Shown one piece after another: positions 56,250-64,000 of a stretch of 64,000 nt of DNA (its first letter is position 1; each line of letters opens with the position of its first letter). The position numbers were made by a program, and so were the translations under genes. Origin of the DNA: Rikenellaceae bacterium (GTDB taxonomy: Bacteria > Bacteroidota > Bacteroidia > Bacteroidales > Rikenellaceae); NCBI GenBank assembly GCA_015060015.1, contig SUZG01000004.1, forward strand, positions 57,503-121,502, given 5' to 3'. The notes below the pieces were generated by a model. The model was given only the letters and a program-made list of their open reading frames with translations. It had not been told where the DNA came from and searched no databases.

Positions 56250-56324
56250 CGGGATGTAGCTCAGCCCGGTTAGAGTACACGTCTGGGGGGCGTGTTGTCG
56301 CTGGTTCGAATCCAGTCATCCCGA
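56250..56324 (+). tRNA. tRNA-Pro (GGG)
   Basis: A 75-nt cloverleaf: acceptor CGGGATG / CATCCCG (the C1-G72 pair typical of bacterial tRNA-Pro), D arm TAGCTCAGCCCGGTTAGAGTA, anticodon loop CTGGGGG with anticodon GGG, and T arm GGTTCGAATCC. It lies 47 nt after the CAT tRNA in the same transcript. Confidence 0.93.
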
Positions 56325-56331
56325 CTAATTG

Positions 56332-56445: not shown

Positions 56446-57855
56446 CTAATCAACAAGTCGGCTGAACAAATTGATTGAGTTGATTAGATATCCCCAGTTT
56501 GAGAATGAATAATAACTGTGCTTATACCATTCAATATCATTGGTAATATATTCAACATTAGCATATGAAATAGAAACTGTTAGTGTTGCTTTTTCGCCCG
56601 ATTGAGTCGGTTTGAATAATGGTTTGGGGTACTCCGTGGAAGCGATACCTTGAGAGTAACAGTACAACAATTGAGCTAAACCGCGAGCCATAGCACTGGA
56701 TGCGTACTCATGTTCTTGCTTAAATAGTTTGGTTGGGAAAATTGTCGAAACAAAATCAACCAATTCCTGATAGTTGAATTCGTAATGTACAATTTTGAGA
56801 TAAGCCGTATGATTATATTCTCGCAAGAATATCAGCATAAGAGTCATATTGGGGAATAAATAATGACTCTTTAATGAGCGTAAAACCAACCTTGTGTGTG
56901 CACATAATTTTTCTATCTGGCGTAGAGATAAATGGTATTCATGTGCTAATTGTACGATTCCTTGCAAAAAAGCATCACCATCATCTCTAAATATTTGATG
57001 TTGATTTCGGGCTGGCTGTTGAAAGAAATCTTCAAATTGAAAATACTCATATAGGTAATTGCAATATGTTTCCATATTGGGCTCTGGCAGAATGTACTCA
57101 ACATCAATAAATCTACGCAGATACTCTTCCGCATTGATTCGGTCACTACCATAATGGCCGCGAATGGCATTACATAGTTGCTCTTTATCAATAGCCAAGA
57201 CAAAGACAATACCTTTTAACGAGAAGAAATGTTTGATATGTTCAAGGACCTCTACCGCATAGTCCGGCCTGCATCTATCCAACTCATCAACAATAAATAT
57301 CAAAGGCTTCTGCTCTACTTCTGATTCTATAAACTTTGAAAGTTCTTCTCTAAAAGCGACAAACTGCTCTTTCTTATTCTGATATTCTAAAACTTCTTCC
57401 TTAAAGACATTTCCTGCTTCTTTCGTAAGTGCTTCGGCTATATTGGCAGCATCCTCTCCCAAAAACTTCTTCGTGGCAACTTTTACCAATGTTGGGATTG
57501 CATTATGTGCAATACGACCTCCGATTTCTAATACTTTATTAAAAGCAGACTCCTGTTCGCTTGTAATAGCACCTTGAATTTCGCCAAGCAGGGCCACAAG
57601 CGGATCTGATGTAAAATCATTCTCCCAAGCATTAAAATAGACTGATTTGAATCCTTCTAATTTAAGAGTTGCCTACCACATCTTCATAAATGTGGATTTC
57701 CCCGTGCCCCAAGCACCATTTACGGACATAACAAAACCGTCCGAATAGTTACTTACGATTTGAGTTAACACATTGGCATATTGTTTGCGATTTAATTTAC
57801 AGTTTGCAAATGGATTATCTTCGGGGATAGTAATATCGTAATGTTTGTATTTCAT
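56446..57855 (-). pseudogene. KAP-family P-loop NTPase interrupted by one in-frame TAG
   Basis: A 470-codon frame from MKYKHYDITIPEDNPFAN to the stop at 56446, broken only by TAG at codon 61 (57673-57675). Before it stands the Walker A motif NGAWGTGKST (about 46-55) and MKMW; after it ATLKLEGFKSVYFNAWENDF, the usual continuation in KAP NTPases. Walker B is LIFIVDELDRCRPDYAVEVL. In relatives the interrupted position often carries Lys/Gln, and CAG to TAG is one step. KAP NTPases are membrane-associated or signalling ATPases often found on mobile islands, and some are linked to phage exclusion. With no other lesion, this is either a young pseudogene, a sequencing error or a read-through gene. 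Confidence 0.8.
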
Positions 57856-57878
57856 ATGTAGTAAAATTATGGAATACC

Positions 57879-57886
57879 CAAAGATA
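57879..57886 (-). promoter_or_regulatory. -7 box of the KAP NTPase gene
   Basis: The minus strand reads TATCTTTG, 23 nt before the ATG at 57855, supporting that start over the upstream ATG used in the track. Confidence 0.45.
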
Positions 57887-57926
57887 ATCATTTCTTGCAA
57901 TAAAAGATATGGTTTCGTAGATAAAA

Positions 57927-58198: not shown

Positions 58199-58226
58199 AC
58201 GACCCGCCAATGATTTTGGCAGGTCG
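58195..58226 (-). terminator. Terminator of the 58343-58705 gene
   Basis: On the minus strand CGACC-T-GCCAA / TTGGC-G-GGTCG (one mismatch) is followed by TTTTATT. Confidence 0.6.
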
Positions 58227-58342
58227 CAAATAGAATCTGAATTATCCAATCAATAACAAAATTGAGCAATGCCCATCGGGTAATTTGTTGTCAATGCCAT
58301 ATCCCCAAACAAGGTTTACATTGAGGACCATTGCTAAATGGA

Positions 58343-58705
58343 TTATAATTTGCGATATTTTGCACGATACGCATTTCGACCTTTTATAAACTCATACTCG
58401 TTGGAATCATCTAACAGAGTCTGAAAAAGTATGCGTCCCAAAACCGTACTTTGCGTACTCTGCGATATTGGGTATCGGATAAGTATCGCTTGTAGTATTG
58501 AATTCTCATCCCACTCTATTTGATGTTCTCCAACAAGATTTGACGCTGTGAACTCTATCTGATTTTGGTCGAAACCTTTTTGCTGAATCAGATTTCTCAA
58601 TAAGTTCATAATATCTAAAAGTTCATTGCCGACAAATCGTCTTGCGTGCCATTTAGGCTCATTCATAGGGACTAATCCCCCAATTCTATTTCTTTGATAT
58701 AGCAT
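58343..58705 (-). CDS. Hypothetical protein, 120 residues
   Basis: I do not recognise this protein. It has no signal peptide or membrane segment and looks soluble, with charged helices and an Arg/Lys-rich end (GRNAYRAKYRKL). The ATG is well placed, 11 nt after the stop of the upstream lipoprotein gene, so the two genes are probably one operon. A terminator lies about 115 nt downstream. Its coding status rests on the operon position and an uninterrupted frame. Confidence 0.5.
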   Translation of the reverse strand: MLYQRNRIGGLVPMNEPKWHARRFVGNELLDIMNLLRNLIQQKGFDQNQIEFTASNLVGEHQIEWDENSILQAILIRYPISQSTQSTVLGRILFQTLLDDSNEYEFIKGRNAYRAKYRKL

Positions 58706-58716
58706 AGTGATAAATA

Positions 58717-60912
58717 TTAAAATTCAACTTCTTCAATAGTCGCAAATTTCGTTTTGTAGTTAGAATCATTAGCATAAACCTCTTTGCAGCCGATAGGAAC
58801 TCCTAAATAACTTAGTTTCCCTAAATCAAATGGTTCTGACATAAGGCTTGGAGGAGTCTGTGCCTTACAATAATATTTCGAGAAATCGCACCCCTTGAAA
58901 GCGTAAGAATACAAATTTGTTATAGAAGTGCCAAGCACTAAGTTCCCTTTCAGACTGTTACAATCCCTGAATGCACAACCACTAATGGTTTCTATTGCAT
59001 CTGGGATTACTAGACTACCATTAAAACCACTGCAAGCATCGAAACAATATGCAGGAATCTCAGTTAAATTATTACTCAAAGTCAAAGTACCGTCAAAACC
59101 ATCGCAATAATAAAATGCATATTTACCAATGGCAGTTACGCTATTGGGAATCTTCAAATTACCCGTCAATGCACTGCAATAATAGAATGCTTTTTCTCCG
59201 ATTGTTTGCAGTCCATCGGGCAGGACGAGATTGCCTGCAAGCGATTTACATTCATAGAATGCAGACGCTCCAATCGACTTAACGGACGAAGGAATATCAA
59301 TAGCCGTAATGCTACTACCATAGAATGCATTGTCGGGAATAGCTGTAAGATTCAATGGCAGAATAACTGTTTCAATTGTTGCATCTTTGAAACAACTTGA
59401 CGGAATTGTCGTATTGTTGATTTGTGCCAAATCTACCTGCTTTAATGCGGGCATAGTCCGCATAAAGTCATAATCAAAGGTGTTGAGATTCCCTGTCAAT
59501 TTCAACCCAATGAGTTTTTCTTTCTCATCAGCCGAAATATAAGATTCGAGAGTGCCTGCAGTTGCAACATAAATAGTTTTATAGCCAGATGCTTTCTGGG
59601 CAAACAAAATACTTTGAGCAACCAAACCGCTCTCGTCTTTCAGATTTACAGTTGAATAACGATAGGTTGTATTGGGATTCGCCTGCACGGTAAATGTTAG
59701 TGTCTCGGTGTGCGTAGCAGCGCGTGTGTTGGCAACGGAAATCCACTCTTTGTCGACTTCGGGAATCTCTACGGTATAAACAACATTTGTTTCGACTTCA
59801 ATTTGTACCACCCCGCCTTCCGCTTCGATATCCAATGTGCTGGTAGAAACAATAATCACGCTTTCTACAAAGTTGATTACTCGCATAATCGTGTTATTGC
59901 CTTTGGAAACAAGCACGATGATTCGGCTGGCTGCGAAGTCGGCAGATGGTGTGGTTACAACAATTTTACCCGACTGATAGTCGGTCGGAATTACGGATGC
60001 TTTGTAATAATCTTGGGCGATAACATCAATGGTGGTAGATTCATCTGCACCTTGTATCGCATATTCAATTTCATAGGTTTGATTCGGCAGAGCATTGATA
60101 GAATCTGTATTGCTAAACGCGATATCCAATGATACAGCCTTGGGAATTGAGATTATTGTGTCATCGGTCAAAGTGAAAATAATCTCCGTTTCTGTCTCAT
60201 TGACACTCTTGAAGAGGCCTCCATCTTGCCCAGACTCTCCCTGTTCACCTTGCTCACCCGTTGCCTTACCGAGTTGAGTCCACGATGTGCCATTGTCGTA
60301 TGAGATATACCAATAGTCGTTCTCGATTTTCAGTTGAGGTGTGATGCCGTCCTTGCCGTCGGTTCCGTCTTCTCCATTTGTTCCGTCTTGACCGTCTTTG
60401 CCATCCTCACCGTCGGCACCGTCTTCTCCATCTTTTCCGTCAGTGCCTTGTGCTTTAATCTTATTGCCGTTGGCATCAAGCAACCACTCACCATTCAATG
60501 TCCAATAGTAGATGTTGTCGGTGTCTTGTTTTACTCCGATAATGGGTGTTGAGCCATCCTTACCATCTACTCCGTCTTTACCGTCAGTTCCATTTTGGCC
60601 GTCCTTGCCATCTTCACCGTAATAGATGGTAATGGGCTGCGATTTAGTAAATGTGATGGTGTAACCGACCGTTTCGCCCTCTTTGGTGATGGGTGTAACG
60701 CCTGTAACATAGTCATTGTTCTGCAAAGCCTTCACAATCATCTGTAACGATGAAATGTTAGTGTTCATCTGCTTGCAGAGCTCTTCGAGTTTGGCAATTC
60801 GGCTCTCGTGGTCGTCGAGTTTGTCCCAAATCTTTGAATCGTCAAATGATTCACTACACCCTGCGATAATCATCGTTATAGCAACGAGCAAATAGGTAAA
60901 TAGTTTTTTCAT
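58717..60912 (-). CDS. Surface lipoprotein with collagen-like repeats, BACON-type domain and BspA leucine-rich repeats
   Basis: 731 residues from the ATG at 60912 (MKKLFTYLLVAITMIIAGC; lipobox IAGC, Cys19). Order: a short coiled-coil (about 30-60, DDHESRIAKLEELCKQMN) and DUF4988-like start; a collagen-like Gly-X-Y tract (GEDGKDGQNGTDGKDGVDGK at about 105, then a second longer one near 165-200); a short third (GEQGEQGESGQDGG); beta domains with a BACON-like motif (EVDKEWISV); and a C-terminal BspA-type LRR_5 array (IGASAFYECKSLAG, IGEKAFYYCSALTG, IGKYAFYYCDGFDG). BspA-type LRR proteins in Bacteroidetes and oral bacteria bind host matrix or other cells. It is preceded by a 57-codon ORF in its leader. 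Confidence 0.85.
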   Translation of the reverse strand: MKKLFTYLLVAITMIIAGCSESFDDSKIWDKLDDHESRIAKLEELCKQMNTNISSLQMIVKALQNNDYVTGVTPITKEGETVGYTITFTKSQPITIYYGEDGKDGQNGTDGKDGVDGKDGSTPIIGVKQDTDNIYYWTLNGEWLLDANGNKIKAQGTDGKDGEDGADGEDGKDGQDGTNGEDGTDGKDGITPQLKIENDYWYISYDNGTSWTQLGKATGEQGEQGESGQDGGLFKSVNETETEIIFTLTDDTIISIPKAVSLDIAFSNTDSINALPNQTYEIEYAIQGADESTTIDVIAQDYYKASVIPTDYQSGKIVVTTPSADFAASRIIVLVSKGNNTIMRVINFVESVIIVSTSTLDIEAEGGVVQIEVETNVVYTVEIPEVDKEWISVANTRAATHTETLTFTVQANPNTTYRYSTVNLKDESGLVAQSILFAQKASGYKTIYVATAGTLESYISADEKEKLIGLKLTGNLNTFDYDFMRTMPALKQVDLAQINNTTIPSSCFKDATIETVILPLNLTAIPDNAFYGSSITAIDIPSSVKSIGASAFYECKSLAGNLVLPDGLQTIGEKAFYYCSALTGNLKIPNSVTAIGKYAFYYCDGFDGTLTLSNNLTEIPAYCFDACSGFNGSLVIPDAIETISGCAFRDCNSLKGNLVLGTSITNLYSYAFKGCDFSKYYCKAQTPPSLMSEPFDLGKLSYLGVPIGCKEVYANDSNYKTKFATIEEVEF

Positions 60913-61026
60913 AGTAATATGATTTTGGTTTAACATTCTTTGCTAAATCAAATTACCATTCTGCTCCTTGATGGTGGGTGTCGGTCGGGTAAGTACAAAA
61001 AGAAAGTGTGGAGCAGTTCCGTCTAT

Positions 61027-61200
61027 TTAGTGGTAGGCTCTGACAAAACCCGAAACGAATAAACGATTACAAGACCCCACACCTGTATATGATATGACTT
61101 TGAATCGCATACCAATACAGATGATGAGTGTTGTCGTTACCCTCGTTTCTGGAAAACTGTCAGATTTTACCACTAAGGATAAAAGCGAAAACACTTTCAT
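61027..61200 (-). CDS. Small 57-codon ORF in the leader of the BspA-like gene
   Basis: Too short for the track. ATG at 61200, TAA at 61027-61029; the peptide begins MKVFSLLSLVVKSDSFPETR and ends LFVSGFVRAYH. A good -33/-7 promoter ends 30 nt upstream of the ATG. After GF, moving one base into the neighbouring frame gives CQSLPLNRRNCSTLSFC and a longer peptide ending at a TAA at 60953-60955, so a single T missing from a TTTT run could have shortened a longer protein of about 80 residues. I have the impression that similar small ORFs recur in Bacteroides genomes, but cannot check this here. Function unknown. Confidence 0.5.
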   Translation of the reverse strand: MKVFSLLSLVVKSDSFPETRVTTTLIICIGMRFKVISYTGVGSCNRLFVSGFVRAYH

Positions 61201-61229
61201 CAACTATGTACACCGCTTACGCGACATTA

Positions 61230-61259
61230 CAAAGTTAGAAACTTTTTCGCAATTGACAA
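61230..61259 (-). promoter_or_regulatory. Promoter upstream of the small ORF and BspA-like lipoprotein
   Basis: On the minus strand TTG (61257-61259), a 19-nt spacer and TAACTTTG (61230-61237) match the consensus. If it also serves the lipoprotein, that gene has a leader of about 310 nt. Confidence 0.6.
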
Positions 61260-61329
61260 CACTCTTTTGGGGTCTTGTTCAGCAATAATATCAATATCTT
61301 CGTTGATTCCCCACTACGACTCCGGCTAT

Positions 61330-61385: not shown

Positions 61386-62360
61386 CTAATCCTTGAAAGT
61401 AACCCCGTGCTTCTTGCAGATGTAGAAAAAAGTGGCTATATCCGTATTGCTACAATTTTTAATACACCAATCATATGCCTCTTCGCACTCGAAGTAGCTA
61501 TAATTGGGATGAAACGAACTGATTGTGTGAAAAATATTTCTTCCTAAATCTTCTCCAAACTCAGTTGCCAAAGCTCGACCTATGGCAAGCCAATTCTTTC
61601 GACCTTGCGTAACATCAATTCGCCCCTCCTTAATTTTCTTATAAATAACTTTAACCCTATCAATGGTAGCATCTTGCATTCGTGCATTTCTTGCTTTTGT
61701 GATTCTTCTTGGAGCCATGTTGGGGAGCCTTTTGTAAAACAGATATGCGCGAGGTGAGGTATTGAAATATGGATTGTCATCATAGCTGGCCACACGAAGT
61801 CGTACGACATCAATACCACTCTCATCTGCCACAAGTCCTGTACGCGCCCATATTTCATCAACAAGAGCATTAAAGTGTTCTTTGTGCTTTTCGGGAGAAA
61901 GAATCTTAAATACCAAGCAAAGACCATTTCCACCCAATGATAACCCTGCATAGTATAAGGAATTGAAATTGTAGGCTACCATAGCTTTTACTCGTTCCCA
62001 TCTTCCTTGCACTCGTGGATTCTGCTTCCCGTCAATATCAATGCAGATACACGAACTGGGTTTATGAAGTAAGCGCTTTTTAGAGCGAGTGTCAAATATT
62101 CCAGAAACAGTCACACAAGGTAAAAGATGTTTCTTGATATACATCCGTTCTTCATCATCTTTGGAACTCCTATACCTCATAACAAGTGCTTTATATTTGG
62201 ACGATAATAAGAATTCATATAGCCGAACTTCTTGATATGGTTCAATGGATGTTACATTCTTAAAACAAGATACCACAGGTTCAAAGGTCGGTTTGCAGCT
62301 CCGAACGGTGTTCCTATTTTTATCAGCATTCTTATTTGATTTTTCCATTTTTATTGTCAT
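61386..62360 (-). CDS. BT4734-like / VirE N-terminal domain protein of mobile elements
   Basis: 324 residues. The central part (about 80-215) has the features of the BT4734/VirE_N family found beside primases in Bacteroidetes mobile elements: VTVSGIFDTR, CICIDIDGKQNP, YAGLSLGGNGLCLVFKI and DESGIDVVRLRVASYDDNPYFN, a layout related to primase-polymerase folds. The C-terminal 100 residues contain NWLAIGRALATEFGEDLGR and HPNYSYFECEEAYDW, like PriCT-type helical domains. It probably acts in replication or priming of the element. An exact 14-bp inverted repeat lies 11 nt upstream of the start. Confidence 0.75.
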   Translation of the reverse strand: MTIKMEKSNKNADKNRNTVRSCKPTFEPVVSCFKNVTSIEPYQEVRLYEFLLSSKYKALVMRYRSSKDDEERMYIKKHLLPCVTVSGIFDTRSKKRLLHKPSSCICIDIDGKQNPRVQGRWERVKAMVAYNFNSLYYAGLSLGGNGLCLVFKILSPEKHKEHFNALVDEIWARTGLVADESGIDVVRLRVASYDDNPYFNTSPRAYLFYKRLPNMAPRRITKARNARMQDATIDRVKVIYKKIKEGRIDVTQGRKNWLAIGRALATEFGEDLGRNIFHTISSFHPNYSYFECEEAYDWCIKNCSNTDIATFFYICKKHGVTFKD

Positions 62361-62370
62361 TGTTATTGTA

Positions 62371-62440
62371 GTGTCGTCGAAAGATGTAAGAGCTCAATTA
62401 TCAAACTATTGAAAAAGGCCTATGTGTCTTTCGACGACAC
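62371..62440. repeat. 14-bp perfect inverted repeat upstream of the VirE-N-like gene
   Basis: GTGTCGTCGAAAGA (62371-62384) and its exact complement TCTTTCGACGACAC (62427-62440) are separated by 42 nt of A+T-rich sequence. It could be an operator, a large stem in the mRNA leader, or part of a replication or transfer origin for the element. Confidence 0.85.
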
Positions 62441-62460
62441 GATGATTACACATAAAAACA

Positions 62461-62817
62461 TCAATTCTCTATTTGTTTATCTTCATTAGGCAGCATATTT
62501 AGAGCAACTTTCTTGTCGTAGCGTCTTTTGGCTGCATCTAACAATCGCTTCCAATTGATAAAGCATAGTTCAATTGGTTTTGGTAAAGTCGGATCGGGAG
62601 ATTTGTCGTATAACGCATATTCGCACAAGACTTGGAGGGCTCGTATCCTATATCGTTTATCCATTGCCATTATGGATTCATAAAACGAGATGTAGAAAAT
62701 GAAATGTTCTCTACTCGATTTAGACTTGCTCTTATGTTCCATATTAGCACTCCCTTTAAGCTCATTAGCTAATTGTTCAAACTCGTCATGTAAAACTTCT
62801 TTTGTCTTTTTGCTCAT
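62461..62817 (-). CDS. DUF6291-like small protein
   Basis: 118 residues, no signal or membrane segment. The middle part FIFYISFYESIMAMDKRYRI and ALQVLCEYALYDKSPD resembles the helical DUF6291 family seen in phage and integrative-element genomes, whose members often sit near replication genes. It starts 4 nt after the HTH gene and is probably co-transcribed with it. The function is unknown and the family call is tentative. Confidence 0.55.
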   Translation of the reverse strand: MSKKTKEVLHDEFEQLANELKGSANMEHKSKSKSSREHFIFYISFYESIMAMDKRYRIRALQVLCEYALYDKSPDPTLPKPIELCFINWKRLLDAAKRRYDKKVALNMLPNEDKQIEN

Positions 62818-62821
62818 AATA

Positions 62822-63172
62822 TTAACATTTAATAAGTTGATTTAATTTAATTTCTGTTTCCTGCTCGATAGTAGGCGTGGCGTGGCACTGCATCCAATCG
62901 AGAATCTCTTCGCGATTGAAATAGAGTTTGCGCCCACCGTGTTCGGGCTTGTGGAACGGGATCTTCCGTTCACTGGTGTATTTGTAGATGGTCGCTTCGC
63001 TGTAACCCGTTAGTCGGGCTACGGCTTTGACATCCATCATCACCTCCGATGGTGGAGGTATCGGCTCTTTCAATTGTCCGATAATTCGGTCGATGCCGAG
63101 TAGCTTTTTCAAATCGCCCACCGTTAGCATTGCTATGGGCGTTTCATCTGCTATCTTCTTTTCCATAAGCAT
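62822..63172 (-). CDS. Helix-turn-helix (excisionase/MerR-type) DNA-binding protein
   Basis: 116 residues. The core at about 45-95 reads VKAVARLTGYSEATIYKYTS followed by IPFHKPEHGGRKLYFNREEI, the standard HTH_17/excisionase fold with a winged-helix beta hairpin. In Bacteroidetes integrative elements such proteins act as excisionases or regulators next to the integrase. Start is MLMEKK or, two codons later, MEKK; both are ATG. It is preceded by a terminator that separates it from the 63309-63734 gene. Confidence 0.8.
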   Translation of the reverse strand: MLMEKKIADETPIAMLTVGDLKKLLGIDRIIGQLKEPIPPPSEVMMDVKAVARLTGYSEATIYKYTSERKIPFHKPEHGGRKLYFNREEILDWMQCHATPTIEQETEIKLNQLIKC

Positions 63173-63239
63173 ATGTTTTTGCTTTGTTAATAAAAGTTTC
63201 TAACTATATGTATAATGAGAAAATAAACAGATTTAGAAA

Positions 63240-63278
63240 AAGTAAATTTGCCCCAAAATCGCTTGATTTCGGGGCAAA
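63240..63278 (-). terminator. Terminator of the integrase-hypothetical transcript
   Basis: On the minus strand TTTGCCCCGAAATC / GATTTTGGGGCAAA (13 of 14 pairs) with a 4-nt loop is followed by TTTACTTTTTC. Confidence 0.7.
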
Positions 63279-63308
63279 ATGGGGAAGTTGGTAAAAAATA
63301 TTACTAAC

Positions 63309-63734
63309 TTATCTATTTTGAATAAGTGTGCAAACGGCCGTTATGATTTCGTCGTGAACCTTCCGATTGAGGGTGCCATTCTGGGCGACCATATACTGTT
63401 TGATACATTGCGCAATGCCATTAATAGTATTATACGAAATGTCGGCGATGGATTTTCTTAACCACTGCAAAGATACACGAGGGTATAGATGTTGGGCATA
63501 TATTACATAAAACCATTTGCGAACATCTATTTTGGGATGACGCGCTAATGTTGTGCTTTTATATATTGCCTTTTTGGTGTTAGCAATACTAATCTCGGAT
63601 GATGGATAACGCGGATCTTCGGTTGCTCTATTCTGCTCATTTATAGCATTGCAAATAATAGATAATGCATCCTTCTCCGAAGGGAACATTTTGATGAAGT
63701 CTTTATAAGACATTGGATAAAACGATTTTTTCAT
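63309..63734 (-). CDS. Hypothetical protein, 141 residues, beside the integrase
   Basis: I do not recognise it with confidence. The segment LARHPKIDVRKWFYVIYAQH followed by VSLQWLRKSIADISYNTING is reminiscent of the helical N-terminal domain of IS1595-type transposases (RKWFxAIY ... ), but the zinc-ribbon cysteines and DDE core are absent, so it is not a transposase. It is soluble, helical and basic. It starts 12 nt after the integrase stop, so it is probably an accessory gene of the integrase operon. Confidence 0.5.
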   Translation of the reverse strand: MKKSFYPMSYKDFIKMFPSEKDALSIICNAINEQNRATEDPRYPSSEISIANTKKAIYKSTTLARHPKIDVRKWFYVIYAQHLYPRVSLQWLRKSIADISYNTINGIAQCIKQYMVAQNGTLNRKVHDEIITAVCTLIQNR

Positions 63735-63746
63735 AATTTTCTATTT

Positions 63747-64000
63747 CTATAACACTTTTGCAGCCTCGTTAATCGTGTGATTATCGAAACTGTCGAGATA
63801 AACATTTGTGGTTTTCATATCGGCGTGGCCGAGCATCTGCGAAATTATCTCTCGCGGGATATGATTTTGTTGTAGGGTCATCGCCATTGTGTGGCGTGAT
63901 ACATAACTCGTCAGATGATAGTCAATATCAAGTTCGACTGCCAACTTTTCGAGATATTGTCGATATTTACCGTATCGACTGCGAATGTGATTGTAGAGTT
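63747..64000 (-). CDS. Tyrosine recombinase / integrase (C-terminal part, cut by window end)
   Basis: 83 codons of the catalytic domain are visible, open at the window edge; the track ORF begins at an internal TTG and misses the first 18. Catalytic residues: the Arg-His pair in YVSRHTMAMTL, the His in MLGHADMKTT and the nucleophile Tyr in NVYLDSF. Upstream in frame are LYNHIRSRYGKYRQYLEKL. This belongs to the XerD-like integrases of Bacteroidetes mobile elements. N-terminal DNA-binding domains and the att site are outside the window. Confidence 0.88.
   Translation of the reverse strand, partial: LYNHIRSRYGKYRQYLEKLAVELDIDYHLTSYVSRHTMAMTLQQNHIPREIISQMLGHADMKTTNVYLDSFDNHTINEAAKVL

Follow-up and report, generated by a model that had tools for sequence, protein, structure and literature searches.

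The locus examined here raises the question of how a bacterial protein that joins collagen-like repeats to leucine-rich repeats is built, and what it may do. The window, by which is meant the whole analyzed stretch of 64,000 nucleotides, belongs to contig C28 of an Alistipes genome (in the GTDB sense) of 1.88 Mb. Known bacterial adhesins of the collagen-like type come chiefly from Gram-positives and from a small number of proteobacteria; in the open literature no relevant paper was found that ties Alistipes to such proteins, and DUF4988, a domain of unknown function carried by this protein, was found in a single paper. It is fairly probable that the gene encodes an outer-surface lipoprotein that forms a parallel trimeric rod of tunable reach and presents an LRR_5 tip for ligand binding.

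Domain organization of the lipoprotein

The reading frame starts with an ATG at 60912, and its product begins with MKKLFTYLLVAITMIIAGC. The gene, its signal and the domains beyond the stalk are as follows.

58717..60912, minus strand: stalked lipoprotein gene, 731 amino acids (DUF4988, three Gly-X-Y blocks, BACON, LRR_5), from the open reading frame and Pfam
60856..60912, minus strand: lipoprotein signal peptide (residues 1–18) and lipidated Cys19, from sequence
59629..59772, minus strand: BACON domain, residues 381–428, from Pfam
58843..59355, minus strand: BspA-type LRR_5 array, about residues 520–690, from Pfam and the match to solved LRR_5 proteins

A lipobox, IIAGC with Cys19, can be read from the sequence and is followed directly by the acidic stretch SESFDD, which we take to be compatible with export of the lipoprotein to the surface. 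Pfam assigns DUF4988 (PF16378) to residues 28–160 (E 8e-32; 110.8–111 bits against a cut-off of 30), Collagen to residues 155–189 (E 9e-8; 32 bits against 27.2), BACON to residues 381–428 (E 1e-5), and LRR_5 to the C-terminal part (E 2e-44; 151 bits against 27.7), where the BspA-type region begins at about residue 500. The domain order is thus signal, coil (26–64), beta segment, block 1, beta segment of 33 residues, block 2, beta segment of 27 residues and block 3, followed by a beta-rich region that includes BACON and then by LRR_5 to the C-terminus. An earlier note on this DNA had proposed a collagen-like tract joined to BspA leucine-rich repeats on one surface lipoprotein, which the reading frame, the lipobox and the Pfam Collagen and LRR_5 matches bear out. 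Its layout of coil, Gly-X-Y and LRR_5 tip also stands, except that it overlooked the BACON-type region between the stalk and the repeats.

Collagen-like blocks and their spacers

Several Gly-X-Y blocks had been claimed, and a triplet scan found three, each in phase.

60547..60618, minus strand: Gly-X-Y block 1, residues 99–122, 8 triplets
60340..60447, minus strand: Gly-X-Y block 2, residues 156–191, 12 triplets, with a tandem repeat at 60356–60441
60214..60258, minus strand: Gly-X-Y block 3, residues 219–233, 5 triplets, with a recombination edge at about 60246–60254

Within residues 96–236, runs with glycine at every third position comprise 25 triplets, and the longest of them has 12; when these residues were shuffled 10,000 times, the longest run averaged 2.9 (largest 8) and the number of triplets in runs averaged 0.9 (largest 13). 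The periodicity is far above chance, and in-phase runs of the kind that define collagen-like sequence are present. Among homologues the blocks range from 4 to 22 triplets, whereas the spacers between them are almost constant, at 27 residues (80 times), 33 or 32 residues (76 times) and, between modules, 89–91 residues (18 times). Near-fixed spacers with variable blocks are what a rod of rigid knots with variable triple helices requires. Among five stalks with 91–97% identity in their N-terminal regions, the triplet counts of block 2 were 12, 17, 6, 12 and 17. The suggestion that the repeat DNA is prone to length variation therefore holds as far as the range of 6–17 triplets among these five stalks is concerned, but the DNA is no simple slippage tract: imperfect repeats of 9/27 bp make up the array, with a period of 27 bp and 67% matches.

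The blocks are almost without proline and have aspartate at 56% of Y positions, so that a free triple helix would be unstable and any helix must be clamped by flanking domains. An intrachain triple helix made from the three blocks of one module was considered and rejected: all three lengths are equal in only 2 of 63 modules, and the unequal lengths in the other 61 speak against pairing among the blocks of one chain.

The coiled coil and the case for a trimer

The segment between the membrane anchor and the first block was predicted by the earlier note to be a coiled coil able to trimerize.

60721..60837, minus strand: coiled coil, residues 26–64, with the trimerization motif R38-I-A-K-L-E43 and a conserved core Cys46, from heptads, AF2 model and motif scan

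A single continuous heptad register covers residues 28–63, with hydrophobic residues at 10 of 11 a/d positions, and residues 26–64 form one helix in the AF2 model. The scan, which is independent of the motif, places R38 at g, I39 at a, L42 at d and E43 at e. The motif R-h-x-x-h-E in the register Arg(g)-Ile(a)-x-x-Leu(d)-Glu(e) specifies parallel trimers, and it has been found in some dimers too (PMC3653964). Among the 77 homologues that have the conserved NTNI anchor, which are mutually related and hence not 77 independent cases, 76 have the motif within the 30 residues before NTNI, with the same offset in 75; it occurs in 1% of shuffled windows, and the remainder of the same proteins has 3 copies among 57,526 residues. 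Because the offset is fixed although the homologues have diverged, the motif is under constraint. The core of the coil, with mostly I/V/C at a and mostly L at d, has a composition that is not specific to trimers. From the heptads and the conserved motif in matching register, the stalk is probably trimeric, an idea that is well supported by the sequence, though unproven. Cys46 (about 60775–60777) occupies a core a position, and at least 90% of modules have kept it; with three such residues per trimer, a disulfide or a metal site could form.

The structural evidence bears on the alternative that the protein is a monomeric display protein, in which the beta segments of DUF4988 would fold together inside a single chain, with the Gly-X-Y blocks serving as flexible hydrophilic loops or spacers and not as triple helices. 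An AF2 monomer of the module reached moderate confidence (mean pLDDT 70.7, pTM 0.38), and its only significant match in the PDB was the N-terminal part of a Bacteroides ovatus GH98 endoxylanase (E 8e-8, probability 1.0), an enzyme that a profile search of the module also matched (E 3e-9). That this sole significant structural match is an enzyme with short loops where the collagen blocks would be, that the beta segments may fold within one chain in GH98 and PL29 enzymes, and that blocks 1 and 3 have low pLDDT with proline scarce in all blocks are each consistent with a monomer. However, the triplet phase is strictly kept while block length varies between 4 and 22 triplets, a regularity that mere loops would not require, the trimer motif is conserved, and the GH98 match has an rmsd of 20 Å, which implies a differing global arrangement. 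The GH98 entries 9h6g and 9h6h contain the same beta-segment core without collagen blocks, and their two chains per entry neither prove nor exclude a trimer. Weak additional matches of the module profile were to the trimeric T4 fibritin (E 0.006) and to designed three-stranded coils. We consider a monomer rather unlikely, and the trimeric rod is the reading carried forward here.

Tandem modules and a general carrier

The unit of coil, beta segment and three Gly-X-Y blocks, each followed by a further beta segment, forms a module that recurs in tandem. In the same genome, full copies occur once in the window protein and in a paralogue on C16, twice on C24, three times on C8 and four times on C5, the last being a protein of 1,964 residues; these paralogues end in differing LRR tips. 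A giant relative of more than 3,070 residues with at least 20 Gly-X-Y blocks lies at L103:4482–13691, where it is cut by the end of the stretch.

Of the 180 species of the genus that were searched, 150 have DUF4988. Among 58 homologues, picked by similarity to the query protein, LRR_5 was found in 47, BACON in 19, an M64 peptidase in 4 and an M60 peptidase in 1. These domains, together with an N-terminal match to the BT3328 lyase described below, show the stalk to be a general carrier for various tips. DUF4988 would in this way gain a concrete, testable meaning, as a trimer-forming stalk module whose length is set by Gly-X-Y blocks and copy number.

Exchange of stalks and tips between species

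Comparison with loci of other Alistipes species from sheep and water deer (L045, L046 and L051) delimits a shared cassette.

60246..61298, minus strand: exchanged cassette of promoter, leader, signal and stalk, 85–91% identical in nucleotides overall to other Alistipes loci, with the coding part up to 98%

Over residues 1–200 the DNA is 85–98% identical to these three loci, and the same codon is used at 66–95% of shared residues; past about residue 220, identity falls to 36–54% over most of the tip. For comparison, the housekeeping gene carB of the window is only 74–77% identical between the genomes concerned. In the tip orthologues (L041 and L042), identity is instead fairly even, at 58–76% along most of the length. 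The shared stretch extends from about 61280–61298, which is 370–390 bp before the start codon, to 60246–60254 within block 3, and both edges are common to several loci; non-coding DNA accounts for about 370 bp of it. Among 23 pairs whose N-terminal regions are identical to 90% or more, just one, an identical pair, shares its tip. These comparisons indicate that recombination joins stalks to new tips and that stalk length changes fast besides. Gut Bacteroidales, as this mosaicism shows, exchange stalks and tips between species, and this would account for a rapid diversification of their surface proteins.

The leader region

The non-coding part of the cassette contains two conserved features.

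60913..61298, minus strand: conserved leader region with a putative Bacteroidales-type promoter box TAACTTTG (complement of 61230–61237), from alignment
60981..61094, minus strand: terminator-like hairpin element GTGTGGGG...CTCCACAC-TTTCTTTTT, model R1, from folding, alignment and model search

The hairpin lies 69–182 nt upstream of the start codon and folds better than shuffled sequences (z -3.0). Of 70 homologous lipoprotein loci, 40 have the element, usually no more than 200 bp from the gene, and a search of 247 Bacteroidales genomes matched it in 39, in many of them weakly; in most inspected copies it ends 13–60 nt before the next start codon, usually that of a secreted-protein or lipoprotein gene. 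It occurs at 8 places in its own genome, 3 of which precede stalk lipoproteins. The other copies in this genome (G000) lie at C5:32435, C5:72880, C5:3196, C7:87796, C19:42009, C24:34625 and C16:130503. An Rfam search of the leader gave no match. Covariation is modest, with 7 double-change cells against 2.2 in shuffles, and the outer stem is almost invariant, in part because the copies were selected by that stem. The simplest reading is that the hairpin acts as an attenuator of surface-protein genes, and it is a candidate for a new cis-regulatory RNA family of Bacteroidales.

An inverted repeat, ACAAGACCCCA, is found around the promoter box at 61068–61078 and 61270–61280 and is kept in relatives. 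It has two pairs with compensating changes, although the transcript presumably starts downstream of one arm. Since inverted repeats flank a promoter-like segment and invertible promoters are frequent in Bacteroidales, the leader might be thought to switch the lipoprotein gene on and off. This is highly improbable: all 10 aligned copies have one orientation, no opposite-orientation copy was found before any stalk lipoprotein, and the leader hairpin with its U run accounts for part of the symmetry. A phase-variable invertible-promoter locus was accordingly rejected, as relatives show a single orientation despite the repeats.

Two tip orthologues (L042:660–971 and L041:5219–5977) have an extra open reading frame that starts at the conserved leader start site. 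That in L042 has CKFCGSTAFGGCMNSPHGQHEH-like zinc motifs and is in frame with the lipoprotein; in the window, only a three-codon open reading frame is left there.

Small genes downstream

The earlier note also held that an adjacent gene of 120 residues is probably co-transcribed with the lipoprotein.

58343..58705, minus strand: 120-residue orphan gene, probably in the same operon, from the open reading frame and neighborhood comparison
58199..58227, minus strand: terminator-like hairpin closing the two-gene unit, from a hairpin scan

This gene begins 11 nt past the lipoprotein stop codon and lies about 4–14 nt behind the lipoprotein in the window and in three relatives with the same tip. As it adjoins the same tip in four species and a shared terminator-like hairpin follows, co-transcription is likely. 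Its product has no family in Pfam or NCBIfam and was not found in plasmids, and the AF2 model is weak (pLDDT 62).

A close co-directional next gene follows 32 of 69 stalk lipoprotein genes, with a median length of 120 residues; for the remaining genes of these loci, which have 126 such neighbors, the median is 328 residues (p = 3e-6). For 16 of 20 small next genes there was no Pfam family at E 0.01 or a sub-cut-off match only; the remaining ones are mutually unlike (NYN, DUF2971 and aspartyl protease). Individual cases at L106:7408–8112, L086:7587–8330, L089:1616–2212 and L097:2045–2440 include a SIR2-like open reading frame (recognized by eye, with no Pfam match) and members of the DUF2971, NYN and aspartyl protease families.

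One explanation would be joint diversification of the lipoprotein and the small gene as a functional pair, such as a sensor or a competition protein at the surface together with a partner in the cytosol. The enrichment of small genes, their mostly family-less and mutually unlike character, and the persistence of the 120-residue gene beside the window-type tip in four species point in this direction. Yet the tips of L084 and L093 are 89% identical and their next genes differ, L045 and L046 have the same next gene behind unlike tips, no toxin or immunity family was recognized, and the pattern could merely mark a recombination hot spot. A functional pair is on balance improbable, and small cargo genes gathering at a hot spot are an equally likely explanation.

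A probable island setting

The lipoprotein gene sits between tRNA-Pro (56250–56325) and a tyrosine-integrase fragment that is cut by the contig end.

56304..56328, plus strand: 3' end of tRNA-Pro, candidate island attachment site, with a 25-bp repeat (96%) at contig C17:1307–1331 (L156)

The repeat on C17 lies near a contig start with no intact tRNA, as is expected of a far attachment site. The gene is therefore probably carried on an integrative island at tRNA-Pro. On the minus strand, 61386–64000 contains a BT4734-type primase, DUF6291, an excisionase-like HTH_17 protein and the integrase fragment. Beside the tRNA-Pro site is a decayed gene for a KAP-family P-loop NTPase in two pieces (56446–57900, minus strand), with the Walker A part at 57673–57900 (profile positions 1–40), the C-terminal part at 56446–57597 (positions 125–287) and a gap of about 85 profile positions between the two.

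Five points are additional to the earlier note: modules in tandem, stalk–tip exchange, the leader element, small-gene partners in general, and the mobile setting. They may be combined, speculatively, into a reassorting surface-display system of Alistipes and its relatives, in which a cassette of attenuating RNA leader and stalk, an exchangeable tip and an exchangeable small cytosolic partner recombine across species and spread on islands. Such a system is a long shot; if it exists, surface presentation and the matching intracellular partner would change together.

A proposed model of the stalked lipoprotein

In the trimeric reading, three identical chains would associate into a parallel rod, with the trimeric coil beside the membrane anchor starting the trimer. 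Short beta knots, formed by the DUF4988 core, would keep the chains aligned, and from knot to knot the Gly-X-Y blocks would wind into short triple helices of the collagen type. The rod would keep the LRR_5 tip off the cell surface, where it may bind a glycan or protein ligand. Reach would be set by the number of Gly-X-Y triplets and by duplication of whole modules, and recombination within Gly-X-Y DNA would change specificity by placing another tip behind a promoter-leader-stalk cassette. The terminator-like leader hairpin would probably attenuate transcription. Within this model the sequences themselves show the order of domains, the constant spacers beside Gly-X-Y blocks of varying length, the modules in tandem, the mosaic and the conservation of the leader hairpin, and from these the trimer, the exposure at the surface, the role in binding and the attenuation are inferred.

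It has also to be considered that the protein serves in glycan capture or degradation rather than as a host adhesin, with the LRR tip binding glycan for use by the cell. The stalk group includes the hyaluronan lyase BT3328 (PL29), to whose family model residues 1–290 match at E 6e-15; the core is common to the xylanase GH98; and M64 or M60 peptidase matches occur in some homologues. Against this, the island has no adjoining SusC/SusD pair or CAZyme gene, and BspA-type LRR_5 arrays are chiefly linked to protein binding. A glycan ligand is a possible but doubtful reading, and it is compatible with the trimeric rod because it concerns the ligand and not the stalk.

Comparison with known systems

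The closest relatives share the stalk. The BT_3328 family hyaluronan lyase (PL29, NF058554) is a Bacteroidales surface lipoprotein with the same signal-stalk core, and positions 1–240 of its model were matched. The window protein differs in having an LRR_5 tip and no lyase, so that the match covers the N-terminal part only (54 bits against an equivalog cut-off of 1100), and in that its modules can be tandem. Trimers and collagen are not discussed in the paper on BT3328 (PMC12877422). The B. ovatus GH98 endoxylanase (9h6f, 9h6g and 9h6h) has the core in common; there the collagen blocks are absent and the tip is a glycoside hydrolase. No paper on the 9h6g structure was found in the open literature. 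At the other end of the molecule, the BspA-like LRR_5 proteins 4gt6, 4fs7 and 4fdw match the tip array with E values down to 2e-29, but are not described with a DUF4988 or collagen stalk.

The streptococcal collagen-like adhesins Scl1 and Scl2 (NF038329 and NF038330) likewise have a variable Gly-X-Y stalk, GKD/GED triplets and an adhesive head, and gave a weak profile match (E 3e-8). They have an LPXTG anchor, an N-terminal globular head and one long collagen region, whereas the window protein has a lipid anchor and short Gly-X-Y blocks that alternate with beta segments.

An origin from phage tail fibers was rejected, as matches in a phage collection are almost confined to the LRR part. Nor does the protein belong with the type Vc autotransporters: Pfam finds no YadA-type C-terminal beta-barrel, and the C-terminus is LRR. 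Unlike trimeric autotransporter adhesins and tail fibers, the window protein has no translocator domain, and no phage genes accompany it. The component families are known, and it is the block-wise reshuffling of promoter-stalk, tip and small gene that appears to be undescribed. As a comparison of how such proteins work, the trimeric autotransporter adhesins and tail fibers remain instructive, for they combine a coil with beta knots into a trimeric rod of variable reach, as the window protein would.
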